A DNA stretch of 64,000 bases, from NCBI RefSeq assembly GCF_018449605.1, contig NZ_JAAVUW010000008.1, positions 62,001 through 126,000 on the forward strand, given 5' to 3'. This document shows, piece after piece, positions 1 through 8,526 of the stretch. The notes beneath the pieces are model-generated. The model saw nothing but the letters and a program-made list of their open reading frames with translations, was not told where the DNA came from and did not search any database. The first letter of the stretch is position 1; each line of letters begins with the position of its first letter. A program made the position numbers and the translations under genes. This DNA is from Luteibacter sp. dw_328 (lineage in GTDB: Bacteria; Pseudomonadota; Gammaproteobacteria; Xanthomonadales; Rhodanobacteraceae).

Positions 1-1089
1 GAACAGGCGGGTCATGGCCTTTGCCAGCATCACGTAGGAAAGTACGAACGACGCAATCTTGACCACGTCGCCCACCAGTTGCGGTGCGTAGAGCCCTTCG
101 GCCGACGTGAAGTCCGCACTGAAGAGAATCCGCGTCACCCAGTCGCGGGCCACGTACACCAGGGCGGCAAGCACGAGCACGACCGGCAGGATGTGCCGGT
201 AGGCATTACGCAACTCGCCGACCAGCGCTCCACGTTCACTGATCGAGGCGAGCTTTGGCAGGTAGTAGATATTGATCGCCGCGGTGAGGAACAGCAGGTA
301 GGCGTCCGACACCTTGCTCACGGCCTGCCAGTTGCCGACCTGTTGCCAGCCGAACTGGAGCGCGAGGTGATCGCGTACCGCGATGTTCACCAGCGGCGGA
401 AGCAAGGCCGAACTGATCGTCATCAACGAGAAGGCGGCGAGCCGGCCGTTCATTTCGCGATCGAAGCGCAGCCGCGGCAGGCTCTGGCGGAAGTACGGGC
501 TGCGCCACCACGAGGGAAGGGCCACGGCGAGCCACGCCAACTGGCCCAGGACGAGGGCGAGCAACGCGCCGTAGAGCTGGAAACGACTGGCCAGCCACGC
601 GGCCATGGCGATGCCGAGCACCGAACCGATCACCTGGATGAAAGCCAGGCGCCGCACGTCCATGAAACCATTGATCACGGCCAGCACGTAGTTCACGGCA
701 GCGATCCCCAGTTGGGCGACTGCGAGAACGCGGATAAGGCTCTCGAAACCGGCGTCGCCGAGAATCCAGACGGCCAACTGCCGGCTGAACACCAGTGCGG
801 CCAACCCCATCAGGCACGATGCGCAAAGCGCGTAAGAAAGCGCCGCGGCGAGCAGGCGCGAAAGGCGCTGCGGGTCGCCGCGATACTCGGCCACATACTT
901 GACGATGCCGGCGCTGATACCACCGCCGGCAAGCACCGCCAGCAGCGACATCAGGCTCATGAACTGCCCCAGCCGGCCGACGCCTTCGGGCCCGGCGAAC
1001 CATGCCACCAGCTTGATGACGACCAGGCCGGCCAGCAGCCGCGCGGCGGTGCCTATCGCTGAATAGAAACCGGCGCGCGCCAGGCTCAT
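1..1089 (-). CDS. Lipid-linked oligosaccharide flippase, WzxE-like (3' end outside window)
   Basis: Multi-pass inner-membrane protein of the polysaccharide transporter (MATE/PST) superfamily that would flip an undecaprenyl-linked oligosaccharide to the periplasm. Translation of the minus strand from ATG at 1089 starts [20 protein letters not shown] and continues open to the window edge, so the C-terminus is missing. Hydrophobic helices recur throughout, and stretches such as [20 protein letters not shown] and the [20 protein letters not shown] region resemble E. coli WzxE. Its ATG overlaps the stop of fdtB by 4 bp, so the two are translationally coupled. Together with fdtA and fdtB this suggests a glycan containing 3-amino-3,6-dideoxyhexose (O-antigen or an ECA-like polymer). 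The family is clear; the exact substrate is inferred from the neighbours. Confidence 0.85.
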
Positions 1090-2198
1090 GTCGACGGCCG
1101 GAAGCTCATGCACGCCCGAATGACGTGTTCGACCGCCTCGTCGCCGAGTGTCGGTCCGATCGGAAGACTCAGGACTTCGTCGTGCAGACACTCCGTCAGG
1201 GGCAAGCTCACAGGCAACGCTCCGGCATAGGCCGGCTGCCGGTGCGGCGCCTCGGGATAGTGAACCTGGGCATGGACACCCTCGGCCAGCAGGTGCGCCT
1301 GCAACGCATCGCGCTGGGCGCTGCGGACGACGAACAGGTGCCACGCGTGGCGTTCTTCGCTCGCGAGTGCCGGCAAGCCGATCGCGGGATGTCGGATCGA
1401 CGCGAGGTAGCGCCGTGCGATCGCCCGACGACGGGTGACATCCGCATCCACGTACTTGAGTTTCACGCGCAGCATCGCCGCCTGCATTTCGTCCAGCCGT
1501 GAATTCACGCCCTGGTAAAGATGGCGGTACTTCTCCAGCGACCCGTAGTTGCGCAACGCCGCGACACGCGTGGCGAGTTCGGCATCGGCGGTGACGACCG
1601 CGCCGCCGTCACCCAGCGCACCCAGGTTCTTGGCTGGAAAAAAGCTGAAGGCCGCGGCATCGCCGAAGGCTCCCGCACGACGCCCCGACCAGGTGGCGCC
1701 ATGGGCTTGCGCCGCGTCCTCGATCACCAGCAGGCCATGCCGGTGGGCGACGGCGGTGATGGCAGGCATATCGGCCAGTTGGCCATACAGGTGCACAGGC
1801 ATGATCGCGCGCGTCCGCGGTCCGATGGCCGCCTCGATGGCCGCGGGATCGAGATTGAAGGTGGACGGGTCTGGCTCGACGGCAACGGGTACCAGTCCGC
1901 TTTGCGTGATCGCGAGAAAACTCGCGATGAACGTATTGCCAGGAACAATCACCTCGTCGCCATCGGCTAACCGGCCGAGGGATTTGCAGGCACGAAGGAT
2001 CAGTGACAACGCATCCAGCCCATTGCCCACACCGACAGCGTGCGGCAGACCGCACCATCGAGCGAACTCGCTTTCGAAGGCGGCCAGTTCCTGGCCGAGC
2101 ACGTACCAGCCCGAGTCGATGACGCGCCCCGCGGCGGCCTTCAGTTCGTCGGCATGGCGTGCATTGATGGCACGCACATCGAGAAAAGGTACGTCCAT
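1086..2198 (-). CDS. fdtB: DegT/DnrJ/EryC1/StrS-family sugar aminotransferase, FdtB-like
   Basis: PLP-dependent transaminase of 370 aa, the normal size for the family. It would aminate C3 of a dTDP-3-keto-6-deoxyhexose. PLP-binding features are [10 protein letters not shown] (about 56-65), the [11 protein letters not shown] segment (158-168) and [15 protein letters not shown] with the likely Schiff-base lysine K190. It follows the 3,4-ketoisomerase gene fdtA after only 13 bp and overlaps the flippase gene by 4 bp. That order matches dTDP-Fuc3N/Qui3N pathways. No N-acetyltransferase (FdtC) is inside the window. WecE (4-amino transaminase) is an alternative, but the FdtA partner favours 3-amination. 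Confidence 0.85.
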
Positions 2199-2211: not shown

Positions 2212-2637
2212 TCACAGGGCCAGCCCTTCCACGTAGCGCGTGCCCTGCACTTCCCGCAGGAACTGCGCGTAGTCGGTGATGTAGTCGGCGGGGTCGTAGA
2301 ACTGATCCGCCAGCACCATCAGGACGCAGTCGTCGCTGAAATCGTAGAGCTCGCGCCAGACCATGCTGCCCAGGAGCAGGCCTTGCGTGGGATCGTCGAG
2401 CACGACGGTCGCCGGACCGGTGCCGTCGTCAAGCAACAGCGTGACCGAGCCCCGCACGGGCACCGCCAGCTGCGTGAGGTGGCGATGGGCATGTTGACCG
2501 CGATGCACATCCGGCGTGTTGGCGAATATGTAGTACACCCGCCGGATTTCGAACGGCACGTTCCGGTTCTGCTCCAGGGAAACGAGCATGCCCCGGCTAT
2601 CGCCGTGCTTCTGTAACTGGATTCGCTCGATTTCCAT
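2212..2637 (-). CDS. fdtA: dTDP-4-keto-6-deoxyglucose 3,4-ketoisomerase (WxcM/FdtA family)
   Basis: Single cupin domain of 141 aa from ATG 2637 ([20 protein letters not shown]). It moves the keto group of dTDP-4-keto-6-deoxyglucose from C4 to C3, giving the substrate of the aminotransferase. The cupin histidines lie in [10 protein letters not shown] (H45, H49, H51), the catalytic region known for FdtA/QdtA. An in-frame start 99 bp further upstream is possible, but the family starts where I place it. First gene of the fdtA-fdtB-wzx set. FdtA (galacto product) and QdtA (gluco product) cannot be told apart by eye. Confidence 0.83.
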
Positions 2638-2774
2638 GGTGTCGGCCAGGCACTGTTTCGTTGATGGCGTCGTACGAACTTGAGTGCCGGCCCTGTCACC
2701 AAAGGTTGCGGCAACCTTCCGCCGCCCACGCGGCACTCAATCGCATTGGCAGCGATGTGAAGGGCAGCTCGGGC

Positions 2775-3383
2775 ATGGGACTGAATCCACTGACACCGTT
2801 GAGAGGCGGTCCCGTGAGGGGCAAACCGGCAAGGGGCTCGGGCCAGGCTGCCCTGACACCCCTGCCGCGACGGCTGCGCGTCATGCACTGGCTAACGGTG
2901 ATCTGCGTGGTGATGGCAGCCGCTTTCATCCTCACCCGTGACCAGCTCGATGGACGCAACGTGCGCCTGTGGTTGCTGGAGGGGCACCGCCACTTCGGCC
3001 TGTTCGTACTCGCGCTGTTCGTCATCCGCGTGTTCGTTCGCCTGCGGGTCGGCAAACTGCCCTCGTCAGGTGAGGCTCCCTGGCCCATGCGCGCCGCCGC
3101 CGGCCTGACCCATATCGCCCTCTACGCCCTGCTGGTCACCCTGCCCCTGCTCGGCTGGGCGCTGAGCAGCGCGGAAGGCAAACCCGTGCATCTCTTCGGC
3201 GCCACGCTGCCCAACTTCGTGGCGGCCGACGAAGACCTCGCCGACACCCTGCAGACCTGGCACCTCAATGCCGCCTGGGTGCTGCTGGGACTGGTGTGCC
3301 TGCATATCGCCGCCGCGCTCTGGCACCACTTCGTCATGCGCGACGGCGTGCTCCGCCGGATGTGGCCCAAACGCCGTCGCTGA
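2775..3383 (+). CDS. Cytochrome b561-family protein
   Basis: About 202 aa, four predicted membrane helices, ATG at 2775 preceded by AGGG. Histidines suited to axial haem b ligation lie in MHW (helix 1), EGHRHFG, LTHIALY and the last helix LVCLHIAAALWHH. Proteins of this family pass electrons between quinol or periplasmic donors and acceptors in the inner membrane. An in-frame GTG/ATG region upstream (2661) would add a basic, non-conserved extension. It heads a plus-strand block with an outer-membrane cytochrome-porin 23 bp downstream and a soluble cytochrome c, so it is a plausible inner-membrane terminus of that chain. Confidence 0.85.
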   Translation: MGLNPLTPLRGGPVRGKPARGSGQAALTPLPRRLRVMHWLTVICVVMAAAFILTRDQLDGRNVRLWLLEGHRHFGLFVLALFVIRVFVRLRVGKLPSSGEAPWPMRAAAGLTHIALYALLVTLPLLGWALSSAEGKPVHLFGATLPNFVAADEDLADTLQTWHLNAAWVLLGLVCLHIAAALWHHFVMRDGVLRRMWPKRRR

Positions 3384-3406
3384 CCACACGAAAACAAGGA
3401 ACTGTC

Positions 3407-4750
3407 ATGTTGTCCCATCTGATCCGACGCGTTGCCCGCTGGGCTCGCTCAGCACATCTTGGCTGGGCCGTCGCGGCACTGCTGATGCTCGCCAGCACGG
3501 CCGCCCAGGCGATTCCCGCCTATGCGCGGCAGACCGGCTCGGCGTGTGCCGATTGCCACGCCGGTTCGTATGGTCCGCAACTCACGCCCTACGGCATGCG
3601 CTTCAAGCTCAACGGCTATACCGACACCGACGGCAAGGGCTTCAAAGTGCCGGTATCGGGCCAGCTGAAGGAAACCTACACGAATCCGGCGACGGGCAAG
3701 AGCACGACGGACCTTACCGAGGGTGACCTCTATGTGGCCGGACGCCTTACCGACCAGATCGGCGGCTTCGTGAAGGTCGAGGCCGATCGCACCGGACACG
3801 ACACGTACAACACGCGGTTGAGCAACGTGGACCTGCGCTTCGTCGCCAAGGAGCTGAAGCTCGGCGGCAAGGACCTCACCCTGGGTGTGAGCGTCAACAA
3901 CAGCCCGGGCTTCCAGGATCCCATCGCGGCGTTGCCGAATGCCTCGTTCATCTCGCCGGTCGGCGTGACCGGCTCGCTGCTGAGTCTCGCCACCCCGAAC
4001 GCACCGACAGACCGCGTGATCGGCGCGACGATGTACGCCCTCTACGACCAGAACTGGTATAGCGAAGTGGGCACCTACCGCTCCCTGCCCACGTCGACCC
4101 AGGATCACCTCGGATACAACATCGCCAGCGACCCCGGCAAGCTGCACGACACGGGCTATTTCCGCTTCGCATACATGAAGGACATGAAGAAGCAATTCTT
4201 CTCGGCCGGTGTCGTTGCACTGACCACACATCGGTCGCTGCCGAGGTCCGGGCCCAGCGACAACCTGACCGATCTCGGCTACGACCTCACGTACCAATAC
4301 CTCGGCAACCGCGAACACATCCTCCAGCTGGCCTACGTCAACATCCTCGAGCAGCGTCACTACGGGGCGGATCTGTTCGGACCCGGCGGCATCGCCGCGC
4401 CGAACCGCGGTGATGTCCGCGACCAGACGCTCAGCGCCACCTATACGTTCCACCAGACCTACAGCCTCTCGGTGTCGCACATGCTCAGCACCGGCACCCG
4501 CGACGACGTGCGCTACCCGCCCTTCGGTGACCCGGACGCCACCAGCAACGTCATCACGCTGTTCTGGGCGCCGTTCGGCAAGGACGATTCGTACACCACC
4601 ATCGCCAACCTGAAGCTCGCTGCCACCTGGTATCGCATCACGAATTTCAATGGTCGCGGGCACAACATCTTCGGCGCTCCCCCCGGCGCCCAACCTATCA
4701 ATGCAGGAGATCTGAATGCATTCACCCTTTCCACCAGCCTCGCGTTCTGA
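3407..4750 (+). CDS. Fused monohaem cytochrome-porin, Cyc2-like outer-membrane protein
   Basis: 447 aa with a signal peptide ending near QA-IPAY. It has one haem c motif, CADCH (C47, C50, H51), inside IPAYARQTGSACADCH, followed by the PQLTPYGMRFKLNGYT segment. This matches what I know of the N-terminal signature of Cyc2, the outer-membrane Fe(II) oxidase of iron-oxidising bacteria, in which a short cytochrome domain is fused to a beta-barrel. The remaining roughly 380 residues alternate short amphipathic strands and end in Phe (STSLAF), as in barrels. Start chosen at ATG 3407 behind AAGGA. The next gene overlaps its 3' end by 35 bp. Cyc2 homologues also occur in bacteria not known to oxidise iron, so Fe(II) as substrate is a hypothesis. 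Confidence 0.75.
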   Translation: MLSHLIRRVARWARSAHLGWAVAALLMLASTAAQAIPAYARQTGSACADCHAGSYGPQLTPYGMRFKLNGYTDTDGKGFKVPVSGQLKETYTNPATGKSTTDLTEGDLYVAGRLTDQIGGFVKVEADRTGHDTYNTRLSNVDLRFVAKELKLGGKDLTLGVSVNNSPGFQDPIAALPNASFISPVGVTGSLLSLATPNAPTDRVIGATMYALYDQNWYSEVGTYRSLPTSTQDHLGYNIASDPGKLHDTGYFRFAYMKDMKKQFFSAGVVALTTHRSLPRSGPSDNLTDLGYDLTYQYLGNREHILQLAYVNILEQRHYGADLFGPGGIAAPNRGDVRDQTLSATYTFHQTYSLSVSHMLSTGTRDDVRYPPFGDPDATSNVITLFWAPFGKDDSYTTIANLKLAATWYRITNFNGRGHNIFGAPPGAQPINAGDLNAFTLSTSLAF

Positions 4751-5144
4751 GGCTCACCGCGGCCGCTGGCTGCACGGGGTTGCGCTGGCCGGGCTGGCCC
4801 TCGGCTGGCTCGCGGCTTCCCCCGCCGTTCGGGCCGGTGACGCGACAGCCGGTGCCGATGTCTTCAAGTCCGAATGCGCCGAGTGCCATACCGTGAAGGA
4901 GGGCCGCAACAAGAAAGGCCCCAGCCTCTTCGGTATCGTCGGGCGGCAGTCGGGCAGCATCGCCGACTACAGCTACTCCGATGCGCTCAAGCAGGCGAAC
5001 TGGACGTGGACCGCGGACAAACTCCACTGGTACCTGTCCCAACCGGCCAAACAGGCCAATCCAGGCACGAAGATGAAATACGATGGACTCACTGACGCCA
5101 AGCAGCTGGACGATCTCCTGTCTTACCTGAGCAGCGTGCACTGA
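4716..5144 (+). CDS. Periplasmic class I c-type cytochrome
   Basis: 142 aa. An N-terminal signal peptide (about 1-40, cleavage after AVRA) is followed by a single haem domain with CAECH (C54, C57, H58). The probable distal ligand is M120 in NPGTKMKY, the usual spacing for c550/c2-type proteins. ATG 4716 has AGGAGA just upstream and lies inside the end of the cytochrome-porin gene in another frame, so translation is probably coupled. It would shuttle electrons across the periplasm between the outer-membrane cytochrome-porin and inner-membrane carriers such as the b561. Confidence 0.9.
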   Translation: MHSPFPPASRSEAHRGRWLHGVALAGLALGWLAASPAVRAGDATAGADVFKSECAECHTVKEGRNKKGPSLFGIVGRQSGSIADYSYSDALKQANWTWTADKLHWYLSQPAKQANPGTKMKYDGLTDAKQLDDLLSYLSSVH

Positions 5145-5165
5145 CGACATCTGTATGACGACGTG

Positions 5166-5945
5166 ATGCGGCAAAGCCACCCCGGGTCCACACACAGGGG
5201 TATGCGGTCGGCACGGTGGTTCGCCACCCTGCCGACGGGTACCTGTGTGCGGCTCGGTATCGTTGTGTCGGCGCTACTGCTCGGCACTTACGGGGTGGCT
5301 GCGCACGCGCAATCGTCGAGTTTTGGCGGGGTGGTCGCGGTCAGCAACCAACTCGTCGATCGCGGGCTGGCGGTCACGCCCAAAACCCCTGTCCTCCAGG
5401 GCGCCCTTTCCTGGACGACGCCCTCGGGCTGGTCGCTCGGCCTTTCGGCCAGCACCGAAACGCGCGCACCGGGGAAGATCGTCGAGGCCCTGGCCCAGGC
5501 CTCGTATGCGTGGTCGCTGTCCGCCGACTGGCAGATGCAGACGAGTCTGCTCTATTACCGCTACGGCAACGATTCCCACTGGCGCATCTACGATCGTGTG
5601 GAACTGGGCGCCAGCTGGATCTACCGCGACGTCCTCACCGTCGGCGTCTCTGCGGCCCAGCTCGTTCATACGGGCGGTCGCGGACCGCGCGGGGCCGCCG
5701 ATATCGGCTTCCGCTGGCCGCTGGCCTGGAAGCTTGCGGTGTCGGCCGGTGTCGGCACGGCCCAGTACCTCATTCCGCCCTACAACCGCGACTATCCTCG
5801 CTACCAATACGGGCATGCCGGCCTCATATGGGAGAGTGAAAGGTGGCGGGTCGAGCTCAATCACATCATGACCCGGCACGCACCGCGGCCTGACGGGTCT
5901 CCCGCGGTCTCACCGTGGAATGCGACTGTCTCGCGCTCGTTCTGA
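5166..5945 (+). CDS. Outer-membrane beta-barrel protein, TorF-like putative porin
   Basis: About 259 aa with a signal sequence ending at AAHAQ, then alternating aromatic/hydrophobic strands and a terminal Phe (NATVSRSF), which fits a small outer-membrane barrel. The start is uncertain: GTG 5163, ATG 5166 and ATG 5202 are in frame, none has a clear ribosome site, and 5202 gives the most normal signal peptide. It lies 21 bp after the cytochrome c gene and so probably belongs to the same transcript. I cannot assign a ligand. Confidence 0.65.
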   Translation: MRQSHPGSTHRGMRSARWFATLPTGTCVRLGIVVSALLLGTYGVAAHAQSSSFGGVVAVSNQLVDRGLAVTPKTPVLQGALSWTTPSGWSLGLSASTETRAPGKIVEALAQASYAWSLSADWQMQTSLLYYRYGNDSHWRIYDRVELGASWIYRDVLTVGVSAAQLVHTGGRGPRGAADIGFRWPLAWKLAVSAGVGTAQYLIPPYNRDYPRYQYGHAGLIWESERWRVELNHIMTRHAPRPDGSPAVSPWNATVSRSF

Positions 5946-6011
5946 GCCAGCGCAACCTTTCCCCTCTAAAGGGGTACTCACGCTGGCCTCCCGACTTGCT
6001 CCGACGAAACC

Positions 6012-6596
6012 ATGAATGACGCGGACACCGACGCCGACACCACCGACCGCCTCCTGCTGCAACGGATGGCGGCGGGCGACCGCACGGCACTCAGCGTGCT
6101 CTACCGCAGCTACCACGGGCGCTTGTCCCGTTTTCTGTCGCGCCTGACACGCCGCGCGGACATCATCGAGGAAGTCATCAACGACTGCCTGTGGATCACC
6201 TGGCAGAAAGCCGGCAGTTTCCACGGCGACTCGCGCGTCTCCACCTGGATCATGGGCATCGCCTACCGGTGTGGACTCAAGGCGCTGCGCCAGCATGGCA
6301 GCGAACCGGTGGATGAGGATTCGGTCCCCGAAGATCGCATGCCCTCCCACGATCCCGATGAAGACCGTGAACTGCGCGACTGGCTGGGCAAGGGGCTGGA
6401 CCGCCTCACGGCAGACCAGCGGGTCGTGGTCGAACTCGTTTACGGCGTCGGCCACAGCCTGGACGACGTCGCCGTCATCATGCAGTGCCCGGTCGGCACC
6501 GTGAAAGCACGCCTGTTCCACGCCCGCGTGAAACTGCGTAACGTGCTTCCGGGCCTTGCCGGTGTCACATCCGCTACAAAGGAGAATGCGCCATGA
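6012..6596 (+). CDS. ECF-family RNA polymerase sigma factor
   Basis: 194 aa with sigma region 2 (about 30-95, including VLYRSYHGRL, DIIEEVINDCLWITWQ and STWIMGIAYRCGLKAL) and region 4 (about 125-180, LDRLTADQRVVVELVYGVGH then a helix-turn-helix around VIMQCPVGTVKARLFHAR). Region 3 is absent, as in ECF factors. Its stop overlaps the ATG of the anti-sigma gene by 4 bp, and that gene in turn overlaps a subtilase gene. An AACCTTT-N-TACTC arrangement at 5954-5979 could be an autoregulated ECF promoter, but this is weak. The target regulon is unknown; the cytochrome block just upstream is a candidate. Confidence 0.93.
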   Translation: MNDADTDADTTDRLLLQRMAAGDRTALSVLYRSYHGRLSRFLSRLTRRADIIEEVINDCLWITWQKAGSFHGDSRVSTWIMGIAYRCGLKALRQHGSEPVDEDSVPEDRMPSHDPDEDRELRDWLGKGLDRLTADQRVVVELVYGVGHSLDDVAVIMQCPVGTVKARLFHARVKLRNVLPGLAGVTSATKENAP

Positions 6597-7231
6597 GGAT
6601 GCCGACGGATACCGGCCGCGATTGCGCCCGCGCCTGGGAAGCCATGCCCTGGGTACTCCAGGACAGCGCGGCTCAGGAACAGACCGAGTGGCTGATGAGC
6701 CATCTGTCCGAATGCGATGGCTGCCGCGCCGAATTCGAACAGCAGAAGCGCCTGCGCCTGGCGATGTCGCTGCCGGCGGATGTGTCCATCGATCCCGAAC
6801 TCGGCCTGCGCCGACTGCTCGCCCGCATCGATGCGCCGGTGATGGAGACCGCGCCCTCACGCGGCGCCGGCGGGAGCTGGCTGACCCGTGCACTGGTGGC
6901 GGCGGTCCTCATCCAGGCGGTCGGGCTGGGTACGCTGGGCGCCCGGTTCTGGGCCGAAGGCACGCCGCAGCCGGCCTACCGCACCTTGAGCCAGGAGGCT
7001 GCGCACGTGCCGGCGGGTGCCATACACGTCGTTCCCGATACCGGCATGAAGCTCGCCGACTGGAACACGTTGCTCCGTTCGATGCAGTTGCAGGTGATCG
7101 GTGGCCCGAATGACGTGGGCGCGTACACGGTCATGCCTGCGGGCGGTGCCGCGGCATCGACCCAGGTGGTGCAGCGCCTGCGCACGGCGCATGGTGTGCG
7201 CCTCGCCGAGCCGGTGAACGCCAGTCCATGA
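6593..7231 (+). CDS. Membrane anti-sigma factor with propeptide-like periplasmic tail
   Basis: 212 aa. The cytoplasmic N-terminus has a zinc anti-sigma (ZAS) motif HLSECDGC (H37, C41, C44). One membrane helix lies at about 98-117 (LTRALVAAVLIQAVGLGTLG), followed by a periplasmic part of about 95 residues. The final 50 residues (about 158-209, including LQVIGGPNDVGAYTV and VVQRLRTAHGVRLAEPV) resemble the propeptide-like segment of the adjacent subtilase (LIAALQKDERVQLAQPL) in hydrophobic pattern and in the closing V-x-LA-x-P. The ATG overlaps the sigma stop, and the stop overlaps the protease start. It should hold the sigma factor inactive until a periplasmic signal releases it. Confidence 0.88.
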   Translation: MRMPTDTGRDCARAWEAMPWVLQDSAAQEQTEWLMSHLSECDGCRAEFEQQKRLRLAMSLPADVSIDPELGLRRLLARIDAPVMETAPSRGAGGSWLTRALVAAVLIQAVGLGTLGARFWAEGTPQPAYRTLSQEAAHVPAGAIHVVPDTGMKLADWNTLLRSMQLQVIGGPNDVGAYTVMPAGGAAASTQVVQRLRTAHGVRLAEPVNASP

Positions 7232-8526
7232 AGATCGGGGTCGCCGCGCTGTTGGGGCTGCTCGTAACGCTGTCGGCGTGCGCGCCGGCACGGCCCCTTC
7301 CGTCGATCGATTCGAGCGTGAACGCGACGCCGGCTAGCGCGGTCGATCGCATGGACAGCCGTCGTGACATCGTGCTCGCGGTAGCCAATCCGCTCGCGCC
7401 CGCCTCGACCCACGCCGGCTCCAGCCTGCTCGGCTACGCCCCTTCCGCGCACTACGGTGCAGGCCAACGGGCCGTCTCCGAACTCACGGACCTGAAAAAA
7501 CGCTACGGCCTGCAGGAAGTGAGCGGCTGGCCGATCAAGGCCCTCGACCTTTACTGCGTCGTGCTCCATCCGGAGCCGGGTGTCGATCGCGATGCGCTGA
7601 TCGCCGCCCTGCAGAAGGACGAGCGCGTGCAGCTTGCGCAGCCGCTGCAGGATTACTCGGTGTACTCCACCGACACCGGCGACGCGCACAAGTACAACGA
7701 TCCCTACGCCGACCTGCAGCGCGGTTTCGTGGAGACCGACGCTGCCCTGGCGCACAACGCGAGCCAGGGCGAAGGGGTTCGTGTCGCCATCGTCGATACC
7801 GGCGTGGACATGACCCACCCGGACCTGCGCGGCCACATCGGCGATACCCGCAACGTCGTGGACGATGACACCTCCGCCTTCGACCACGACAGCCACGGGA
7901 CCGAAGTCGCCGGCATCATCGCCGCCATCGGCGACAACCACCAGGGCATGGTCGGCATCGCGCCCAAGGCCAGGCTAAGCGTCTACAAGGCCTGCTGGTA
8001 TCCCCCCGAATCGCAAGGTGGCGCGCGCTGCAACTCGTTCACCCTGGCCAAGGCACTGGCTGCGGTGAACGATACCGACGCGCGCATCGTCAACCTTAGC
8101 CTGGGTGGTCCCGCCGACCCGCTACTGACCCGGCTTCTCGCCAAGATCCTCAGCGAAGGCCGCATCGTCATTACGGCCATGCCACCGGATGGCAAGCTGA
8201 GCGGCTTCCCCGACGGGGCGCCCGGCGTCATTGTTGTGCGCACCAGTGCCACGACGCCTGCACCACCCGGCGTCGTCAGCGCCCCCGGCAACGACATCCT
8301 GACCACCCAACCCGGTGGCGGCTACGACTTCAGCTCCGGCTCCTCCATGGCCACCGCCCACGTCAGTGGCATCGTCGCCCTGATGCTCGCCCTGGCGCCG
8401 GGGCTCGACCCCGCCTCGATCCACGCCATTCTGCTGAGCAGCAGTGCGACCAAGCACGGGATGCTGGAAGTGAATGCCGCGGGCGCTGTCGCTGCCCTGA
8501 AGAAGAGCGGCAAAGCCCCTCGCTGA
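7228..8526 (+). CDS. S8 (subtilisin-like) serine peptidase lipoprotein
   Basis: 432 aa. The lipobox LSAC (C18) implies lipidation. Residues about 85-141 look like an I9-type inhibitor propeptide, and about 180-425 form the subtilase domain. The triad is D190 (VDTGVD), H223 (DSHGTEVAG) and S373 (SGSSMATAHVSG). Where most subtilases have the oxyanion-hole Asn in an AGN-x-G motif, this protein reads ITAMPPDGK, so that Asn seems to be missing. Third gene of an overlapping sigma/anti-sigma/protease operon, which argues for a role in sensing or in cleaving the anti-sigma factor rather than in nutrition. Peptidase family is certain; activity and partner are inference. Confidence 0.9.
   Translation: MKIGVAALLGLLVTLSACAPARPLPSIDSSVNATPASAVDRMDSRRDIVLAVANPLAPASTHAGSSLLGYAPSAHYGAGQRAVSELTDLKKRYGLQEVSGWPIKALDLYCVVLHPEPGVDRDALIAALQKDERVQLAQPLQDYSVYSTDTGDAHKYNDPYADLQRGFVETDAALAHNASQGEGVRVAIVDTGVDMTHPDLRGHIGDTRNVVDDDTSAFDHDSHGTEVAGIIAAIGDNHQGMVGIAPKARLSVYKACWYPPESQGGARCNSFTLAKALAAVNDTDARIVNLSLGGPADPLLTRLLAKILSEGRIVITAMPPDGKLSGFPDGAPGVIVVRTSATTPAPPGVVSAPGNDILTTQPGGGYDFSSGSSMATAHVSGIVALMLALAPGLDPASIHAILLSSSATKHGMLEVNAAGAVAALKKSGKAPR

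Follow-up and report, generated by a model that had tools for sequence, protein, structure and literature searches.

The three-gene cytochrome operon

The locus described here lies in a 64,000-nucleotide stretch of contig NZ_JAAVUW010000008.1 of Luteibacter sp. dw_328 (hereafter the window; host genome 5.05 Mb), in which three consecutive forward-strand genes encode a cytochrome b561, a Cyc2-type cytochrome-porin and a class I cytochrome c, candidate parts of an electron conduit across the cell envelope. The three genes, and two motifs within the middle one, are as follows.

2775..3383, + strand: dihaem cytochrome b561, CybB/superoxide-oxidase-like; 202 amino acids (aa) from the ATG at 2775; PF01292, E 9.6e-28
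3407..4750, + strand: Cyc2-type fused cytochrome-porin; 447 aa, ATG start; assigned from signature, alignment, AlphaFold2 model and tree
3509..3535, + strand: Cyc2 signature AIPAYARQT, residues 35-43; compared with the published AXPXFAR[Q/K][T/Y] (PMC8406198)
3545..3559, + strand: haem c attachment motif CADCH, residues 47-51; C47, C50 and H51 invariant in 61/61 sequences
4716..5144, + strand: soluble class I cytochrome c; 142 aa, ATG start; PF00034, E 3.8e-10

A chance or artefactual origin of the three genes is ruled out by coding bias and conservation, since third-position guanine plus cytosine content is 78-83% across all of them, homologues occur in the family, Pfam domains are matched and the gene order b561-Cyc2-cytochrome c is preserved from Xanthomonas through Thauera. 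An earlier note on this DNA had described a 447-aa protein at 3407-4750 with IPAYARQTGSACADCH followed by PQLTPYGMRFKLNGY and a barrel-like sequence ending in Phe, all of which is found in the translation (C-terminal end ...LSTSLAF). It had also described a b561 and a soluble cytochrome c of the protein's own, and both are seen in the reading frames and in the PF01292 and PF00034 matches, with the cytochrome c start lying 35 bases inside the 3' end of the porin gene.

The signature published for Cyc2 ahead of CXXCH is matched at eight of nine positions (PMC8406198), with Y in place of F; orthologues at the same locus in L036, L042 and L043 have F there. The protein contains only two cysteines, C47 and C50, both within CADCH, and thus a single CXXCH. 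The PXL motif follows as PQL after five residues (CADCH-AGSYG-PQL), the published spacing being 4 aa downstream. Around the haem motif, the residues of ARQTG and GP.LTP.G..FK are invariant in all 61 sequences of the fold alignment, which comprised the window and 60 of the 79 loci introduced below; a further alignment held the window and 35 of those loci. An N-terminal hydrophobic segment followed by AQA, read by eye from the sequence, stands ahead of the haem segment, and the length of 447 aa exceeds the Cyc2 family minimum of 365 aa. Searches of the protein gave no match in Pfam at E 1, one non-significant line in NCBIfam (E 0.1) and no match among PDB sequences at E 10. A structure prediction, the check that the earlier note had proposed for the barrel, was run, and the AlphaFold2 model places a predicted 16-strand barrel after the haem segment. 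The near-complete signature, this barrel and the homology over most of the length to Cyc2-signature proteins uphold the identification as a Cyc2-type fused cytochrome-porin, whose kinship with the Cyc2 family is well supported at the sequence level, with two signature details deviating.

The partner proteins also appear intact. Counted from the ATG at 2775, residues H38, H71, H163, H177, H184 and D190 of b561 are invariant in 77/77 sequences, the histidines including those that pair as haem ligands. The best PDB match is the E. coli superoxide oxidase CybB (5oc0, E 4.4e-21), with H177, H184 and D190 aligning with CybB H151, H158 and D164, which lie at the quinone site on the cytoplasmic side (PMC11869295). 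The protein, as judged from its residues, thus keeps the haem histidines and the quinone-site residues of the E. coli enzyme. Its score against the NCBIfam CybB equivalog NF008566 is 89.1 bits and does not reach the cut-off of 170, so it is CybB-like rather than CybB. In the cytochrome c, C54, C57, H58 and M120 are invariant in 80/80 sequences.

Conservation of the core and place in the Cyc2 tree

The conserved-locus sample was drawn by a 13-row profile scan of genome contigs, in which the best 80 of 217 relatives gave 79 loci; relatives are called Luteibacter where their genomes share the genus code of the host. The core of b561, Cyc2 and cytochrome c is kept in Luteibacter, Dyella, Rhodanobacter, Xanthomonas, Lysobacter and Betaproteobacteria. 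The cytochrome c lies downstream of the cyc2-like gene at 79/79 loci and the b561 upstream at 77/79 (76 by BLAST, which missed a PF01292 gene at L178); at one of the other two, L163, the contig starts within the cyc2-like gene and the upstream position is not covered. Sixty loci belong to the Xanthomonadales (25 Xanthomonas, 20 Dyella, 7 Luteibacter, 5 Rhodanobacter, 1 Lysobacter, 1 further Rhodanobacteraceae and 1 Lysobacterales metagenome-assembled genome). Genes for a TorF-like porin, an extracytoplasmic function (ECF) sigma factor and an anti-sigma factor accompany the core at 60/60 of these, and a subtilase at 59/60, the remaining contig being cut; none of the four is found at the 19 non-Xanthomonadales loci. 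Of 24 loci compared for the region near b561 (those 19 and five others), 19 have a response regulator of OmpR type there and 19 a 2CSK_N sensor kinase, calls that were read from frames, with family matches for a few loci. At L168, L171, L172 and L173 this pair stands upstream of the module, the Xanthomonadales having an ECF sigma downstream instead. With the two-component pair outside the Xanthomonadales and the ECF sigma within, the three-gene core appears to have stayed constant while its regulator was exchanged between lineages.

Within the family of the host, 112/197 genomes have some homologue of the 447-aa protein. A form 59-100% identical to it occurs in 52/197, and the remaining full-length matches are 28-42% identical; the closest named relative is that of Luteibacter sp. 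OK325 (90% identity). Both b561 and cytochrome c accompany the close form at 19 of 20 loci sampled in the family, and one locus, L033, has no sigma, anti-sigma or subtilase matches. That every Cyc2 has a b561 can be rejected, for 16/20 distant-form loci of the same family (L051-L070) have neither b561 nor cytochrome c. Among the other distant forms, L052 has the b561-cyc2-cytochrome c order, L051 has cytochrome c only, and b561 lies about 0.9 kb downstream in L068 and more than 5 kb away in L065. One genome of the family (G104) has four Cyc2-type homologues on contigs C1, C28, C43 and C46, and only the C1 copy stands beside b561 and cytochrome c.

Across the phylum, the family profile at E 1e-10 matched 78 of 398 genomes, 56 of which carry one family code (f39), with the alignment spanning about the first third only and containing AIPAFARQTGAACLSCHFQSFPTLNAFGRAFK or similar; these genomes are taken for Zetaproteobacteria. 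A reference for the rus operon was found in genome G840, where a Cyc2 heads a series of cox genes, ctaA, ctaB and rusticyanin (names read from frames, not profiles) that matches a published description of rus operons (PMC10654088). The rusticyanin-like matches of G840 score 137 bits, below the cut-off of 146.7, and of its two Cyc2 matches one heads this series; G786 had a rusticyanin match above the cut-off and no Cyc2 match. The window protein and the rus-operon Cyc2 of G840 are 27% identical over 392 aa (E 1e-26).

A maximum-likelihood tree was built from 71 hand-chosen rows (the window, 27 of the 79 loci, 37 loci of other genomes and 6 plasmid loci); L100 was not used, as no frame passed the filter. 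The Xanthomonadales form makes up one clade (17 rows, support 100/100), whose stem is 0.98 changes per column long. Its sister is a 15-row, mainly betaproteobacterial set (100/96), followed by L079 and L080 (100/99), and the six f39 rows and two G840 rows are placed elsewhere. With group labels set by hand (L046 in no group, L171 and L051 outside the b561 group), the label for b561 and cytochrome c beside the gene requires 3 changes on the tree versus a shuffled mean of 12.0 (0/500 shuffles as low), or 4 when all rows are counted. On a plasmid of Acidithiobacillus ferrooxidans YQ-N3 (CP084173.1; L072, 5974-8270), a c-type cytochrome gene lies downstream of one with the Cyc2 signature, and an equally scoring match lies on an Acidiphilium cryptum plasmid; the Cyc2-signature gene may encode a mobile cytochrome-porin.

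By its sequence, then, the protein sits on a branch apart from both iron-oxidiser-type groups that could be tested, and because of this Fe(II) oxidation is unproven; the label "Fe(II)-oxidising" given by the earlier note is not supported for a long-stemmed clade separate from the rus-operon Cyc2 and the zetaproteobacteria-like group. A true Fe(II) oxidase would let dissolved Fe(II) into the barrel to reduce the haem, with the cytochrome c passing electrons to a cytochrome oxidase and b561 as a side branch to quinone. The Cyc2 signature with the predicted barrel and the homology to the rus-operon Cyc2 speak for it, as do four haem-copper oxidase genes in the host genome, through which a downhill route may exist. 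We nevertheless regard this explanation as unlikely: besides the separate clade, the RuBisCO large subunit and a rusticyanin-like protein have no match in the host genome, the host genera are generally known for heterotrophy, and an Fe(II) oxidase does not need a dedicated b561.

The ECF sigma operon and its promoter-like motif

The genes and sites around the core in the window are listed below, with the number of Xanthomonadales loci at which each site recurs.

1086..2198, - strand: DegT-type sugar aminotransferase of the divergent cluster; PF01041, E 1.5e-111
2212..2637, - strand: WxcM/FdtA-like sugar-modifying protein, first gene of the divergent cluster; PF05523, E 7.4e-45; probable start at MEIERIQL
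2681..2708, - strand: ECF-type promoter-like site CAACCTT-N14-GGCACTCA, pointing to the divergent WxcM/DegT cluster; 55/60 loci
2712..2739, + strand: ECF-type promoter-like site CAACCTT-N14-GGCACTCA, 35 bases upstream of the start codon of b561; 55/60 loci
5163..5945, + strand: TorF-like putative porin with no motif before the gene; TIGR02001, E 7.4e-12, 45.3 bits (cut-off 47.15); probably the last gene of the b561-Cyc2-cytochrome c operon
5953..5980, + strand: ECF-type promoter-like site CAACCTT-N14-GGTACTCA, upstream of the sigma gene; 53/60 loci
6012..6596, + strand: ECF sigma factor; PF08281, E 2e-11, and PF04542, E 4.6e-8; median identity by genus 73-82%
6593..7231, + strand: probable anti-sigma factor with zinc-finger-like N-terminus; NF052375, E 3.8e-7, 30.3 bits (cut-off 100); PF13490, 0.024, below cut-off
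7228..8526, + strand: S8 subtilase with lipoprotein-type signal (LSAC, read from the sequence), which might cut the anti-sigma factor; PF00082, E 7.5e-33

The motif was first found by aligning upstream regions, which carried the same two boxes ahead of b561 and of the sigma gene. Searched on both strands of the 60 Xanthomonadales loci, CAACCTT-N14-GNAC gave 165 matches. Of these, 163 fall into three positions: upstream of b561 in 55 loci, upstream of the sigma gene in 53, and on the divergent side, facing the WxcM gene, in 55. Seven patterns served as controls (the motif read backward, with its halves swapped, with a scrambled box, or at four other spacings) and gave 0-2 matches; box spacings of 13 and 15 accounted for 3 matches each among 174. 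A longer form of the motif had 4 exact and 7 one-mismatch sites in the host genome versus 1 for the backward pattern. Over 41 relatives it had 34 exact sites (backward pattern 4) in 15 genomes of the host's genus, all among the 18 genus members that carry a cyc2-like gene, and none of the 5 genomes without the gene has a site. With a 13-base form, 36 of 39 matches in 12 named genomes fell within about 25 kb of the module (backward pattern 2), and eight of the 12 had one or two more sites, 14.6 to 23.8 kb away and oriented like the divergent cluster. Position, spacing and co-occurrence suggest that the motif is the promoter of the adjacent ECF sigma, and the module is probably under the control of this sigma of its own. 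Motif sites also lie upstream of two TonB-dependent receptor genes (L210, 4943-4970, exact; L213, 4007-4034, one mismatch; host contig 1), the exact site at one receptor being about 300 bases ahead of the frame, from which we draw no conclusion. The further host sites are in the sdh region, at a radical SAM/ABC pair and at two more places.

The 20 kb beside the module in the host encode a Polysacc_synt flippase, Wzz, two GT1 glycosyltransferases, DegT, WxcM and an NTP_transf_5 protein, together with two B12-radical SAM proteins, two methyltransferases, an amidohydrolase, an ABC exporter and an HPr-kinase-like protein, mostly, though not all, on the divergent strand. Frames with a match in this host stretch number 11/17 in the Xanthomonas arboricola counterpart, which has an additional GT2 and a GNAT protein, and 11/15 in Rhodanobacter sp. 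Soil772, as found with a crude gene finder. In Luteibacter, a related motif site lies 27 to 33 bases ahead of ccmC; in the host it is situated between the end of the preceding frame and ccmC, whose product matches PF01578. With up to two mismatches, the site is present in 13/16 genomes with a cyc2-like gene versus 0/3 without (Fisher one-sided p 0.02, kinship-uncorrected), and these 13 are the sole matches in 118,704 positions of the 16 loci, where shuffles give about 0.4. CcmC is part of haem delivery to cytochromes c, and the site therefore fits a conduit made of c-type haem proteins.

ECF sigma factors, anti-sigma factors and envelope proteases are typical of stress systems, and the module may accordingly be read as the antioxidant branch of an envelope-stress regulon, in which b561 and cytochrome c would exchange electrons with superoxide, peroxides or lipid peroxyl radicals at the surface. 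The CybB-like b561 with its quinone site and the apparent co-regulation of surface polysaccharide agree with such a role, and in Burkholderia the b561 LcoA and the lipocalin BcnA guard against lipid peroxidation (PMC9113575). A fused haem-porin would be odd for it, however, and none of the motif sites read in the host genome stands at a recognisable catalase, peroxidase or repair gene; we find this explanation rather improbable.

A candidate conduit and the direction of electron flow

The reading that we prefer, at a probability of roughly 0.6, is that the three genes form an ECF-controlled, quinone-linked trans-envelope electron conduit in heterotrophs. A Cyc2-like barrel in the outer membrane, with its monohaem cytochrome c segment presumably at the periplasmic mouth, would swap electrons between its haem and something dissolved outside the cell; the soluble class I cytochrome c would ferry them through the periplasm, and the dihaem b561 in the inner membrane would couple them to the quinone pool. 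The ECF sigma, held by its anti-sigma, would turn on the conduit, its own operon and the divergent surface-polysaccharide cluster, and in Luteibacter also the haem-ligation genes from ccmC on. Gene content and order, conservation, intact haem and quinone-site residues, the predicted barrel and the shared promoter-like motif are read from the sequence; electron flow through the conduit, its substrate and its direction, the position of the haem segment and the role of the motif as the promoter of the sigma are inferences.

Several observations weigh against this conduit. The haem segment (residues 23-77) is not resolved in the AlphaFold2 model (predicted local distance difference test under 50), nor in the model of a betaproteobacterial homologue, and a second axial ligand (His or Met) is not conserved anywhere in the family alignment. 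The cyc2-like gene of the close orthologue L046 has neither b561 nor cytochrome c beside it, and the Zoogloeaceae locus L171 has no b561, so b561 is not indispensable. L071, L072, L079 and L080 have a cytochrome c and no b561 in the examined flank (about 1.5 kb for L079 and L080), so that the cytochrome c may pass its electrons to oxidases instead. As for regulation, the exact motif is absent before b561 in 5/60 loci and before the sigma gene in 7/60, it does not occur in the 19 non-Xanthomonadales (betaproteobacterial) loci, and the ccmC association is confined to one genus, in which 3/16 genomes miss the threshold (3, 4 and 5 mismatches). The L046 gene (G039, 5965-7320) has a lengthened haem spacing (CAVCHSSAFGGGDNGP), with TorF, ECF sigma, anti-sigma and subtilase still present, and is a possible case of decay. 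If the haem segment were a relic throughout, the protein would be an ordinary porin in an operon persisting for other reasons, which would suit the poorly modelled haem segments and the altered spacing and missing partners of L046. The invariance of C47, C50, H51, ARQTG and GP.LTP.G..FK across the fold alignment, and of the haem ligands of both partners across all their sequences, makes this very improbable.

For the proposed conduit, we lean slightly towards outward flow, from quinol through b561, cytochrome c and the barrel haem to an extracellular oxidant, perhaps Fe(III) chelates or other oxidants. Class I cytochromes c with His/Met ligands usually have high potentials, so that electrons run downhill from quinol to cytochrome c, and heterotrophic life does not call for reverse electron flow. 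Inward flow seems to us the less probable direction, although analogy would favour it, as CybB moves electrons inward and verified Cyc2 proteins accept electrons from Fe(II); a route over the cytochrome c to the oxidases is possible. A wider proposal, which we put forward only tentatively, is that a dedicated ECF regulon of the Xanthomonadales builds an outward conduit along with surface polysaccharide and its own haem ligation supply, apart from iron lithotrophy.

The predicted proteins resemble several known systems in part. With Cyc2 of Mariprofundus (Cyc2PV-1) and A. ferrooxidans, the 447-aa protein shares the N-terminal monohaem CXXCH, the ARQT signature, a length of about 450 aa, the predicted 16-strand barrel and a periplasmic cytochrome c partner. 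It differs in Y for F in the signature and in its b561 and ECF neighbours, as well as in its distance from the rus-operon Cyc2 and from the zetaproteobacteria-like group (similar mainly in the haem part), which stand in for the named proteins. The b561 is, like CybB, a dihaem protein with equivalents of H158 and D164, but its operon also encodes a cytochrome c and an outer-membrane cytochrome, which makes the former its probable electron partner. LcoA-BcnA of Burkholderia likewise ties a b561 genetically to an envelope partner, with a proposed quinone-linked redox role (PMC9113575), but that partner is a lipocalin and not a haem protein, and there is no barrel. MtrCAB, MtoAB and PioAB share the notion that a barrel is where electrons pass the outer membrane, in their case with a separate porin and a decahaem cytochrome; here a single haem is fused to the barrel, and there would therefore be no haem wire across the membrane.

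That Rhodanobacteraceae and Xanthomonas have a Cyc2 homologue as such is already known: a similarity network ties A. ferrooxidans Cyc2 to Rhodanobacteraceae homologues (PMC10654088), and several Burkholderia, Ralstonia and Xanthomonas sequences were taken out before the published Cyc2 tree (PMC8406198). Among the matches listed in the open-licence literature, there was no description of a b561-cyc2-cytochrome c operon, of ECF control or of a polysaccharide link. The conserved three-gene operon, the promoter-like motif with its ECF link, the ccmC site and the quinone-site residues of b561 are new, and the module is real and widely conserved. Cyc2 homologues in bacteria not known as iron oxidisers are an acknowledged puzzle (PMC8406198, PMC5566968), for which the operon offers a tractable subject: its hosts are culturable heterotrophs, its redox partners are fixed and point to the quinone pool, and the likely target promoters of its regulator can be spelled out. 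Carried by a soil bacterium that feeds on organic matter, the gene set suggests electron transfer over the outer membrane in bacteria for which no life on iron is known. Should the conduit work, genes with the Cyc2 signature found in metagenomes ought not to be taken as iron oxidation before their neighbours have been checked. If the wider proposal is true, monohaem extracellular electron transfer would be commonplace among aerobic heterotrophs and plant-associated bacteria.

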